Positions 15,831 through 28,525 of a stretch of 64,000 nucleotides of DNA are shown here, piece after piece (positions within the stretch are counted from its first letter, which is position 1; each line of letters begins with the position of its first letter). The position numbers were made by a program, and so were the translations under genes. The notes under the pieces are model-generated. The model was not told the DNA's origin, ran no database searches, and worked only from the letters and a program-made list of their open reading frames with translations. Origin of the DNA: Candidatus Aenigmatarchaeota archaeon. GTDB taxonomy: Archaea > Aenigmatarchaeota > Aenigmatarchaeia > JACPZZ01. Location: assembly GCA_016202815.1 (NCBI GenBank), contig JACQNZ010000002.1, forward strand, positions 80,228 through 144,227, written 5' to 3'.

Positions 15831-16775
15831 TCAGTATTGTCTTCTGGCTCGTAATTCCGCAAGTTCTTCTGCCGCCCTGTTCGCGCGCACGCGCCTTTTG
15901 ATGCCTTTGAGATGGGCTTTCACAGCCCGCTCGCTCTCTGCTTCCTGCGCATACGTTTGGTGCCTCGTCTCCTGCCTTTCAATGGCTTTTGAGAACCTGT
16001 TTAATTCTGTCTTCAACCCTTTTGCATAACCTTCGGTGGCTGCGGACGCCAGTCCGTTGTCGCGCAGCGTTTGCATCACGCTGTCGATATATTCGCCCGC
16101 GTCGCCCGCCTTCTCTTTCACATCAGAAAGCGAACCCGAAACCCTTCTAACCGACGGCCTTCCCACGCGCACCCAGTTCAATGGGTTCTTCGATGCGTGT
16201 ATGCTTACGCGGCCGCCAAGTTCTGCCTGCACGCCGGATTTCGCATGTCTTCCAGCGCTATAAGTTTCGTTGGCTTTTGTCGCCATCAGGTTTCTCGCAA
16301 CCTCCGTAGCCTGGTCTACAAAAGCGTTGATCGCACGCTCGGCTTGATTATAACTTGTCAGTGCTGCGCCTGATTTCGGCTTTGGGCCAAGGGCCAGTTT
16401 TGCCTGCTGCGCATAGCTTCCGGCTGTTCGAAGCTGCTCGTCAACATTGCGCGCTTTAACGCCCGCCGTTTTCGCGTCCTTCAAAATTCCTGTGACCGCA
16501 GCATACCTGTCCTGTACGCCTCCCTGGTAAGAGCCGGTGATCATCCCGCTAACCTGTTCGGAAAAATCATTGATCGCCTGAACCGATTTATTATAATCAG
16601 CCCTTGCTGCGCCGGATTTCGGCTTTGGGCCCAGGACCGCACGGGCCTGTGTTATGTAATCGCTCGCGCCGCTTAGCATTTTTGTATAATCGGTCTGCCG
16701 CTCAACAGAGCGCAGCCCCTTTGTCAGAATGCCATTTACTTTGTCGTACGTGGTGGCCGCCGGTTTTGTAGCCAT
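15831..16775 (-). CDS. Helical repeat/coiled-coil protein, paralogue family A
   Basis: The 314-residue soluble, very basic and alanine-rich protein has a duplicated helical module: YITQARAVLGPKPKSGAA followed by YNKSVQAINDF (about residues 38-75), and YAQQAKLALGPKPKSGAA followed by YNQAERAINAF (about 120-155). A second module around residues 195-225 has the motif VRVGRPSVRRVSGSLSDV, which recurs as P-x-RP-x(3)-VSG in the genes at 19359, 20064 and 20914. ATG 16775 is chosen over 16799 because AGG lies seven bases upstream. The function is unknown. The operon position points to a partner of the membrane array. Confidence 0.75.
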   Translation of the reverse strand: MATKPAATTYDKVNGILTKGLRSVERQTDYTKMLSGASDYITQARAVLGPKPKSGAARADYNKSVQAINDFSEQVSGMITGSYQGGVQDRYAAVTGILKDAKTAGVKARNVDEQLRTAGSYAQQAKLALGPKPKSGAALTSYNQAERAINAFVDQATEVARNLMATKANETYSAGRHAKSGVQAELGGRVSIHASKNPLNWVRVGRPSVRRVSGSLSDVKEKAGDAGEYIDSVMQTLRDNGLASAATEGYAKGLKTELNRFSKAIERQETRHQTYAQEAESERAVKAHLKGIKRRVRANRAAEELAELRARRQY

Positions 16776-16849: not shown

Positions 16850-17929
16850 ATGAACTATCCGATAACAGGCGCGATAAAAGAAGCGTGTTCGGAAATTCTG
16901 GCCCGCCGCAGGAACCGGATAAAGGCGATCTGGATATACGGCTCGTTCGCGCGCGGCGAGTCGAAACCGACTTCGGACATTGACATAATGACCCTGGTCG
17001 ACGACGCAACGACAGACATATCGTCCGCCGAGCTTGCAGAAATGAGCGCCGACATTTCCGCGATAAACGACGCTGTAAAGGAAAAGACAAAAGTCAACAT
17101 ACATTTCCAGCCGGCGAAGCGGTTAACAGATTGGTGGGATTTATTGCGTTCAGGCGAACCCTGGGTTTTCACGTCTATGAGGGATGCTATGCCTGTTTAT
17201 GACCCGTCAGGATACGTCGAACCGATCAGCCGTTTGCTGAAAGAGGGCCGTATGATCGGAACGTCAGAGCGCTCGCAAATGCTGATACAGCGCGCGCCGT
17301 CCCGCCTGGAAGACGTGCGCAAAATATTTTTGGAGGACATCACGGCGGACCTGCTGTTCGCCATGGTCGAGGCCGGCCAGGCTGCGCTGATGTTTTACGG
17401 CGTGGCGCCGCCGTCTGCGAAAAACCTCGGATCCGCGCTGCGCAAGCATTTTGTGTCCAAAAAAATCCTCCACGCCTACTACGCTGACATCGTCGACGAT
17501 TTCTACGCAATAACAAGAAAAATCGACCACGGCGACCTCACGAAAATAACCGCGAAAGAGATCAATTCATGGGTCGTGAAGGCGAAGGATTTCATCTACA
17601 TGATCGACACCATTTTTTCAAAGTTGGAAACGGAAAAGAAAAAAGAGATGATCGAAGAATCCAACAGCGTGGCATTCAGCGCCTGCAAAAACCTTTTGAA
17701 AAAGCGCGGCGTAAAGGCGAATGACGGGAATATTTTGCATTTCATAGAAAAAGAGCTTGTCAAGACCGGTCTGGTGTCTAAAGGCTACCTGGAAATCCTG
17801 AAAAAAATAAAATCCATGAAGCACGCGTCCGACAACGACAAGCTCAACGAGATCACGGAAAAGGACGTTTACACATCTCGGTTGTACGCGAAAAACCTGG
17901 CCGAGATATTGAAAGAGGTTAAGAAATGA
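16850..17929 (+). CDS. Nucleotidyltransferase-HEPN protein
   Basis: The 359-residue protein has an N-terminal nucleotidyltransferase fold with the complete signature YGSFARGESKPTSDIDI (about residues 24-40), that is GS-x(10)-D-x-D. A helical region resembling HEPN domains follows (about 105-255), and a second helical part of similar size (about 265-355) fills the C-terminus. MNT/HEPN pairs are known from toxin-antitoxin and stress systems, where the nucleotidyltransferase AMPylates the HEPN RNase. Here both parts sit in one chain. The gene overlaps the next one by four bases (ATGA), and both interrupt the minus-strand coiled-coil array. Confidence 0.8.
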   Translation: MNYPITGAIKEACSEILARRRNRIKAIWIYGSFARGESKPTSDIDIMTLVDDATTDISSAELAEMSADISAINDAVKEKTKVNIHFQPAKRLTDWWDLLRSGEPWVFTSMRDAMPVYDPSGYVEPISRLLKEGRMIGTSERSQMLIQRAPSRLEDVRKIFLEDITADLLFAMVEAGQAALMFYGVAPPSAKNLGSALRKHFVSKKILHAYYADIVDDFYAITRKIDHGDLTKITAKEINSWVVKAKDFIYMIDTIFSKLETEKKKEMIEESNSVAFSACKNLLKKRGVKANDGNILHFIEKELVKTGLVSKGYLEILKKIKSMKHASDNDKLNEITEKDVYTSRLYAKNLAEILKEVKK

Positions 17930-26968: not shown

Positions 26969-27694
26969 TCACCTTCTTGACAGTCTTTGCCTGGCTTCAT
27001 CGGTTCCCCATCTAAAGATATAGTTCCTAAAGGCGGCTCTTTGTTCTGCTGCCATTCTGCCGAGATCTTCCAGGCATTCCAATATGTCGGACATGCTGGC
27101 AATGGAAAATATCTGGACGCCTGTTTTTTGCCTGAACTCCTCAACAGCGTCTTTGCCGTACTCATCGACCTCCTGCCTGTCAACCGCTATCAAACCCGCA
27201 ACGACTCTTGCGTTATCTGCGACCCTTGCCAAGACCCCCAGAGCCTCTTCTTTTGCCTCGCCCGTTGTCAGGACATCATCCACCAAAAGTATCCTTGACC
27301 TGTCGTTAATCCTGTGCCCTAAAATCAGCTCATTTTGCAACCCGGCCTTTGCCGCAGAATCGTCTGCCGCCTCGCCGTGGATCTTAACCTCTTTCCTGTA
27401 AGACGACCAACCTTTGTTTATCCCTCTGCCCGCCAACGCCATCGAAGTGGCAACAGCGAGCGGTATGCCTTTGTAAGGCGGTCCAAAAACTACGTCGAAA
27501 TCGGTTCCCACACAAGCTGTCGCCGCTTCCGAATAAAATTCACCGAGCCTGGCCATCCTGTAGCCGTTGTCAAAAAGGCCCGTGTTGATAAAATACGGCG
27601 ACTCTCTTCCGCTCCTGAGGCGGAACGACCCGACACGCAACGCGTCAGAATCAAAAAGAAACTTTACAAACTCTTTCTTATACCGGTTCTGAAT
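26969..27694 (-). CDS. pyrE: Orotate phosphoribosyltransferase, probable ATT start
   Basis: The protein transfers ribose-phosphate from PRPP to orotate in pyrimidine synthesis, the step before PyrF (28538). The PRPP motif is RILLVDDVLTTGEA, and FRLRSGRESPYFINTGL is the family's N-terminal region. The first conventional start (TTG 27640) would remove the first helix. Reading further upstream in frame gives QNRYKKEFVKFLFDSDAL, which fits the family, and the best candidate is ATT at 27694 with AGGAG eight bases upstream. No ATG, GTG or TTG lies between. ATT is a rare start. Length with it is 241 residues. Confidence 0.88.
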   Translation of the reverse strand: MQNRYKKEFVKFLFDSDALRVGSFRLRSGRESPYFINTGLFDNGYRMARLGEFYSEAATACVGTDFDVVFGPPYKGIPLAVATSMALAGRGINKGWSSYRKEVKIHGEAADDSAAKAGLQNELILGHRINDRSRILLVDDVLTTGEAKEEALGVLARVADNARVVAGLIAVDRQEVDEYGKDAVEEFRQKTGVQIFSIASMSDILECLEDLGRMAAEQRAAFRNYIFRWGTDEARQRLSRR

Positions 27695-27719: not shown

Positions 27720-27745
27720 AATCTTATATGCTTATCTAAATTAGG
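27720..27745. promoter_or_regulatory. Divergent promoter region of pyrE and tRNA-Gln
   Basis: The AT-rich segment separates two divergent genes. The minus-strand CATATAAGA (27730-27722) is a TATA-like box about 30 bases before the proposed pyrE start. The plus-strand TTATCTAAATTA (27732-27743) lies about 25 bases before the first base of the tRNA, the expected archaeal TATA distance. Confidence 0.5.
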
Positions 27746-27763: not shown

Positions 27764-27943
27764 AGCCCCGTAGTGCAGCGGCCAAAGCGCGGATATGCGC
27801 GGTTAGGCACGGCGGGCTTTGGGTCGTCTTAGGCCGAAACATGTGCATACCAATTGCACATGTTTCAACAAGAAGAGACCCGTAAACGGCGGAAGTGCGC
27901 AGCGGAAGTTTCGCACTGCCGATTTCGAATCCGCCCGGGGCTA
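27764..27943 (+). tRNA. tRNA-Gln(TTG) with three introns
   Basis: Removing three introns gives a perfect 73-base tRNA: acceptor AGCCCCG/CGGGGCT (7 bp), D-stem GTGC/GCAC, D-loop AGCGGCCAA, anticodon stem GCGGG/CCCGT, anticodon loop CTTTGGA (anticodon TTG, bases 27819-27821), variable loop AAAC, T-stem GGCGG/CCGCC, T-loop TTCGAAT, discriminator A. Introns are 27786-27806 (21 bases, D-loop, position 21/22), 27823-27877 (55 bases, canonical 37/38) and 27893-27923 (31 bases, 53/54). Each has two three-base bulges separated by a four-base-pair helix, the archaeal splice motif, cut after the second bulge base. CCA is not encoded; a CCA-adding enzyme gene lies nearby. Confidence 0.93.
27829..27866 (+). 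repeat. Palindromic hairpin repeat inside the second tRNA-Gln intron (copy 4)
   Basis: Perfect 12-base arms (GAAACATGTGCA at 27836-27847 and its complement at 27855-27866) enclose a seven-base loop. The lead TTAGGCCGAAACA and the centre GCATACCAATTGCA match other intergenic repeat copies (47136, 19249 and 10516). The hairpin forms the inner part of the 55-base anticodon-loop intron. Confidence 0.7.
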
Positions 27944-28006: not shown

Positions 28007-28525
28007 ATGAAAATGTCCGTCCTTCGCATCGGCCATCGCATATTCCGCGATCAAAGGATAACGACGCACTGCGCTCTCGCTTCGCGGGCTTTCGGAGCGG
28101 ACGAGATAATTATCGTCGGCGACAAGGACGAAAAACTGCAAAAAAACATAGAAAAAATCTCGTCCGAATGGGGCGGCGATTTCAAGATTTCTTTTTCTTC
28201 CGCATGGAAAGACATTGTAAAAAAATACTCTTCCAGCGGTTACAAAATAGCGCACCTGACTATGTACGGGTTGCTATTGCAAGACGTGGAAAAAGAACTC
28301 CGCAAAGATGAAAAAATCCTGTTGGTCGCGGGCGGCGAGAAAGTCCCGCCGGAAGTTTATCAGCTCGCTGATTATAATGTTTCCGTAACAACGCAGCCGC
28401 ATTCAGAAGTAAGCAGCATCGCAGTTTTTTTGGACCATCTGATGCAGTCTGAAGAATTGAAAAAGGAATTCAAAAACGCGAAAAGGAAAATAAATCCGGC
28501 AGCGCACGGAAAATCTTTTGTTTGA
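28007..28525 (+). CDS. trm56: tRNA (cytidine-56 2'-O) methyltransferase, aTrm56
   Basis: The 172-residue SPOUT-class enzyme methylates the ribose of C56 in the T-loop of archaeal tRNAs. Family landmarks are VLRIGHRIFRDQRITTHCAL at the N-terminus, GYKIAHLTMYG at about residue 83, the knot loop LLVAGGEKVPPEVY (about 105-118) and ADYNVSVTTQPHSEVSSIA. ATG 28007 has AAAGGTG seven bases upstream. Longer readings from within the tRNA intron are excluded. It follows the tRNA-Gln gene on the same strand, and the tRNA's T-loop TTCGAAT carries the target C. Confidence 0.94.
   Translation: MKMSVLRIGHRIFRDQRITTHCALASRAFGADEIIIVGDKDEKLQKNIEKISSEWGGDFKISFSSAWKDIVKKYSSSGYKIAHLTMYGLLLQDVEKELRKDEKILLVAGGEKVPPEVYQLADYNVSVTTQPHSEVSSIAVFLDHLMQSEELKKEFKNAKRKINPAAHGKSFV

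Follow-up and report, generated by a model that had tools for sequence, protein, structure and literature searches.

Structure of the tRNA-Gln(TTG) locus

The window is a stretch of 64,000 nucleotides from a draft, metagenome-derived genome (G000, 91% complete) of an organism described as a tiny groundwater archaeon, Candidatus Aenigmatarchaeota. Coordinates such as 27764–27943 follow the numbering of the window. This last region very probably represents a tRNA-Gln(UUG) gene with three introns that would be removed by bulge-helix-bulge (BHB) splicing. It was parsed with a procedure that scores exon pairing alone and gives zero weight to the intron motif. Two exon-only solutions were obtained. 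In each of them all 21 stem pairs form (21/21) and the introns measure 21, 55 and 31 nt; the sole difference is residue 54, which is either T or A. With the standard T54, the four BHB helix pairs of every intron form as well (12/12 in total). Removal of the introns restores a canonical cloverleaf, and the spliced 73-mer was identified by ARAGORN as tRNA-Gln(ttg). For the unspliced gene ARAGORN reported no tRNA, and scanning of the window with ARAGORN and Rfam gave no hits, as is to be expected for a gene with three introns.

All parts of the gene are located on the forward strand. Exon 1 (27764–27785, tRNA positions 1–21) is followed by intron 1 (27786–27806, 21 nt), which interrupts the D arm at position 21/22; its BHB helix pairs 27780–27783 with 27801–27804 and its intron helix is GCGC/GCGC. 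Exon 2 (27807–27822, positions 22–37) carries the anticodon TTG at 27819–27821 and borders on intron 2 (27823–27877, 55 nt) at the canonical position 37/38, with a BHB helix of 27817–27820 and 27872–27875. Exon 3 (27878–27892, positions 38–53) and exon 4 (27924–27943, positions 54–73) are separated by intron 3 (27893–27923, 31 nt) at position 53/54, between T stem and T loop. Here the BHB helix pairs 27887–27890 with 27918–27921, and the intron helix is AGTGCG/CGCACT.

A sequence resembling a TATA box, TTATATG, is present 40 nt upstream of the gene (27724–27730, forward strand) and may serve as its promoter element; the G004 ortholog has one too. The gene for Trm56, the tRNA Cm56 2'-O-methyltransferase (28007–28525, forward strand), lies directly 3' of the tRNA gene in all five species of the genus compared below. 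Upstream lies a phosphoribosyltransferase-like gene (26969–27640, reverse strand), which also precedes the locus in G001, G002 and G004 (at least four species).

Conservation within the genus

Four further genomes of the same genus (G001–G004) were available, which together with G000 represent five species. Searching G000 with the 5' exon pattern, allowing up to three mismatches, yielded two Gln genes, the window gene and a Gln(CTG) gene on contig C2. The 3' exon pattern retrieved the same two places exactly, plus two places with three mismatches that are unlike Gln 3' ends. An intron-poor second Gln(TTG) gene, named in the preliminary description as the finding that would speak against its reading, was sought in the 91%-complete G000 with both exon patterns and Rfam; neither such a gene nor any other second Gln(TTG) gene was found. 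The window gene is apparently the only Gln(TTG) gene of G000, and with the 5' exon pattern a single Gln(TTG) gene was likewise found in each of G001, G003 and G004.

The 5' exon is identical in G001–G004, and the complete spliced tRNA is identical at 73 of 73 positions in G000, G001, G003 and G004, whereas the introns share only about 46–79% identity across species, a difference that excludes chance. In G002 the tRNA has three exon differences, among them A27-T43 and T28-A42 replacing G27-T43 and C28-G42; as the substituted bases are paired, the anticodon stem is kept. Judged by these comparisons, the spliced product is under purifying selection and the window gene is almost certainly functional.

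The introns themselves come and go among the species at conserved synteny. For the D, anticodon and T introns, lengths are 21/55/31 nt in G000, 0/89/34 in G001, 27/61/34 in G003 and 23/52/34 in G004, while G002 has the anticodon intron only (0/53/0). The anticodon intron is therefore present in all five species, the D intron is missing in G001 and G002, and the T intron in G002. Since the D intron is missing in G001, where the sequence reads GGCCAA-GCAC, and both D and T introns are missing in G002, these orthologs show directly where the exons end, and the borders agree with the parse. The coordinates, lengths and positions of the introns given in the preliminary description, and its 73-base tRNA after removal of 21, 55 and 31 bases, are borne out by the exon-only parse; it was also right in calling the introns at 21/22 and 53/54 non-canonical.

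Gln(TTG) and Gln(CTG) of G004 have D introns that match at all 23 bases (AGTGATTTTGTAATCACGGCAAA), a sign that the intron was copied from one of these genes to the other. Unlike in G004, the D introns of these two genes differ from each other in G000 and G003.

Intron motifs and folding

Each of the three introns shows a helix of four base pairs (4/4 pairs) flanked by two bulges of three nucleotides that hold the predicted cut sites, as had been proposed from the first reading. The strict hBHBh' motif, with helices on both sides, was not recovered in the fold test of the introns: the T intron has a helix on the intron side only and the intron-side helix of the anticodon intron is weak. The motifs are thus of the relaxed and not of the strict form.

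In the T-intron region, four species have the BHB fold as their minimum-energy fold. In the D-intron region it is the minimum for G003 and G004, and for G000 it comes within 0.2 kcal/mol of the minimum. With the anticodon intron, the BHB fold equals the predicted minimum in G001 and is about 3–6 kcal/mol less stable than it in the other four species. By eye, a competing helix, GGGUN/NACCC, was spotted that spans both splice sites of intron 2 in the five species.

The class-wide parser, applied to the genes of the wider class, gives a small bonus for BHB helix pairs, so that the class-wide pairing numbers lean towards the motif; the bonus-free check concerns the window gene only. With this parser, the central helix of the 53/54 intron had four of four pairs in all 13 genes, and it covaries with the exon in five combinations, for instance CGGC/GCCG, CCGC/GCGG, CAGC/GCTG and CCCA/TGGG. 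When the partner was slid, pairing of all T-arm introns of the class fell from 1.0 to 0.31–0.46. The D-intron helix gave no covariation signal against shuffled 3' partners (95 observed, shuffled mean 93.6), because its exon side hardly varies. Its pairing was 0.81 versus at most 0.54 in the slid control, and support for the predicted D intron rests on this control, on its geometry and on the species without a D intron. In Gln(CTG) of G000 and G003, the D-intron helix is poor (2/4 pairs).

Distribution of the introns in the class

Matches to the 5' exon were retrieved from 60 genomes of the same class and then parsed; some genes were unparsable. Gln introns at 21/22, 37/38, 53/54 and 59/60 proved common. 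Three-intron Gln(TTG) genes occur in ten further genomes, G003, G004, G006, G022, G025, G033, G039, G045, G051 and G057, of which G025 has an unsupported D-intron helix.

The preliminary description had associated tRNAs with several introns with Thermoproteales and Micrarchaeota-like lineages. This lead did not hold for the host, whose lineage is Candidatus Aenigmatarchaeota: the closest named relative of the threonyl-tRNA synthetase in the window, with 81% identity, comes from a Candidatus Aenigmatarchaeota archaeon (JACOVS010000039.1), which rules out a Micrarchaeota origin. The sequence upstream of tRNA-Gln in this relative is identical to that in G001. Among the papers searched, those accessible without subscription, none dealt with tRNA introns in Aenigmatarchaeota.

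Read by eye, several other tRNA genes of G000 seemingly contain more than one insert, examples being Arg(CCT), Thr(CGT), Ala and one that resembles initiator Met, in which an insert lies close to the D stem. Rfam finds only fragments of these.

A dispersed hairpin repeat

Intron 2 contains a hairpin (27836–27866, forward strand) belonging to a dispersed family with co-varying arms and a consensus near GAAACATATGCATACCAAAAGCATATGTTTC. The copy was matched by covariance model R1 at G000:C1:108055–108101 (E 7.4e-11). This model, built from 17 copies, identified at least 75 separate sites in G000 at E values up to 0.1, a count for which only part of the candidates was scored. Nine of the 20 tRNA genes checked have a hairpin copy 1–4 nt upstream of their 5' end; other copies are located within tRNA introns. 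The Gln leader has hairpin copies in some congeners and lacks them in others.

In G001 (locus L090, 1501–1695), intron 2 contains one hairpin within the loop of another, and the 330-nt leader of this tRNA gene likewise holds hairpin copies nested in the loops of other copies. The nesting looks like stepwise insertion, and from its arrangement the repeat itself looks mobile.

An RNase P RNA match in G000 (C1:16723–17138) scored 76 bits, just under the cut-off, and measures 416 nt against a model of 288 positions; two hairpin-repeat matches, 16703–16749 and 16977–17024, overlap it. Close to the ends of contigs C8 and C9 of G000 lie two Ser(GCT)-Gly(GCC) regions that are almost the same, but the variable-arm inserts of their Ser(GCT) genes differ by an extra nested stretch.

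Splicing endonuclease and ligase

A Pfam profile search of G000 returned a single PF01974 match, in a frame of 220 amino acids that also contains a PF02778 domain. This alpha-type EndA-like gene (C2:68432–68929; PF02778 and PF01974, 94.4 and 59.8 bits) encodes a single unit, as in alpha4-type enzymes. No second endonuclease was found in G000 with the PF01974 and PF02778 models, neither a second subunit gene nor a three-unit protein of about 390–400 amino acids, as would mark an (alpha-beta)2 or epsilon2 enzyme. These were the two types for which the preliminary description had proposed to look, and only the one alpha-type protein was detected. A gene for the RtcB ligase is present at C1:44169.

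The protein aligns with the alpha4 EndA of Methanocaldococcus jannaschii (1a79; query 43–215, E 1.5e-34), likewise a single-domain alpha protein. Tyr115 and His125 are kept; the position of Lys156 is occupied by alanine, so that the catalytic Tyr-His-Lys triad of alpha4-type enzymes is incomplete. In this column, A, S or T was found in 51 of 51 alpha-type domains of the class, some of which are partner-like second units and five of which also miss the histidine, and K in nine of nine epsilon-type domains. No CSL/ASL insertion is present in the alpha protein relative to 1a79 and 1r0v. The lysine of the YGK motif, at the edge of the CSL/ASL site, is kept in 41 of the 51 alpha-type domains. A basic loop, ERGVKxKxGPK, precedes the catalytic histidine and is about six residues longer than in 1a79. 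The EndA alpha subunit of Nanoarchaeum equitans (3iey_A) has a similarly long basic loop before its histidine (GVIPKKGKRSEREHSKW versus GVKIKRGPKEAHEHTKW), but differs from the G000 protein in requiring a beta subunit and in keeping the lysine.

As a side observation, the class holds alpha-only, duplicated alpha (~365 aa), tandem-pair and epsilon-type (~400 aa) endonucleases. In three genomes of one family, an alpha-type protein coexists with one of the epsilon type. Other families of the host's class have epsilon-type proteins whose loop bears YK.

Discussion

In the mechanism proposed here, a splicing endonuclease would make six cuts in the transcript, two in each of the BHB motifs, and RtcB would join the exons. 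We infer the cuts and the ligation as drawn; the gene structure, its borders, the selection and the genes for the EndA-like protein and RtcB come from the sequence. Introns would have been gained and lost between species, transferred as copies from one Gln gene to the other and enlarged by the mobile-looking hairpin repeat.

An alternative reading of the locus would be that of a decaying pseudogene with insertions, the normal Gln(TTG) gene residing in the unassembled part of what is, after all, a draft. We regard this as highly improbable, given a spliced product that stays identical in four species despite diverging introns, compensatory changes in a fifth, and the single Gln(TTG) gene found with the 5' pattern in G000, G001, G003 and G004 and with the 3' pattern in G000. 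Assembly errors or chance as the source of the inserts have an even smaller, almost negligible probability: the assembly derives from a metagenome, but the inserts recur at the same positions in the independent G003 and G004 genomes, and eight more genomes from the class have a related layout.

The cutting step leaves more room for alternatives. Only alpha-beta and epsilon2 enzymes are reported to remove relaxed-BHB introns efficiently, while alpha4 and alpha'2 enzymes are described as unable to achieve this efficiency (PMC6379350). A loop lysine is required for removal of relaxed motifs, and ARMAN-2 EndA no longer cleaves once its catalytic lysine is changed to alanine (PMC12397907), so the G000 alpha protein might be inactive alone. 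Either the enzyme of this clade would work differently or an unseen partner would take part. With a partner subunit that is invisible to the Pfam models, or missing from a draft that is 91% complete, the alpha protein would be able to do without its lysine and without a broad specificity of its own. The known broad-specificity enzymes, being heterotetramers or epsilon2, are in line with such a partner, as is the weak match of the G000 alpha protein to the N. equitans beta subunit (E 0.00062). Nevertheless we consider it rather unlikely, as one alpha-type (PF01974) protein each was found in all five genomes of the genus and a single alpha-type match in most genomes of the class, PF02778 added only one very weak match in G000 (E 0.22, in a frame of 69 amino acids), and tandem endonuclease pairs in five other genomes were readily detected by the same search.

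We favour, as reasonably probable, a reading in which all six cuts, also those at the relaxed motifs of the D arm and the T arm, are the work of the single alpha-type EndA. The three genomes in which alpha-type and epsilon-type proteins occur together weigh against the favoured picture, as do the fold energies of the anticodon intron. As alanine stands in place of the usual catalytic lysine, a different lysine close to the active site, that of the YGK motif or one in the basic loop before the catalytic histidine, may take over its role, a suggestion that we hold to be slightly less likely than not. More tentative still is the extension to the whole clade, in which an alpha-only EndA devoid of the catalytic lysine, with a relocated lysine, might cut relaxed BHB motifs across the tRNA.

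Genes with three tRNA introns are already known elsewhere; the lineage is new. Pyrobaculum calidifontis tRNA-Glu(UUC) and P. islandicum tRNA-Pro(UGG) have three-intron pre-tRNAs (PMC4390854), likewise with three BHB introns per gene and non-canonical positions included. Pyrobaculum belongs to the Thermoproteales and has an alpha-beta heterotetramer, whereas in this member of the Aenigmatarchaeota one alpha-type protein was detected. ARMAN-1 and ARMAN-2 (Micrarchaeum) are, like the host, small-genome archaea with relaxed-BHB introns at several tRNA positions (PMC12397907), but their enzyme is epsilon2, while that of G000 is not and has neither the ASL insertion nor a catalytic lysine at the usual place. 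The tRNA-Ile(UAU) of Cyanidioschyzon merolae also has three introns, in the D, anticodon and T arms (PMC9602550), in a eukaryote with a different endonuclease.

Heavily interrupted tRNA genes are thus a trait common to one more archaeal lineage, in which gain, loss and copying of introns are visible among the species of a single genus. The enzyme complement is less expected than the gene itself: the only enzyme found is of a type expected to be strict and misses a residue without which a related enzyme is inactive, in a cell where making an essential tRNA takes six cuts. With the sole detected enzyme devoid of a residue thought essential, the cutting step is worth testing, and the system allows the evolution of splicing specificity to be tested directly. 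If true, an alpha-only clade of this kind would contradict the rule by which relaxed BHB motifs are cut by alpha-beta and epsilon2 enzymes alone.
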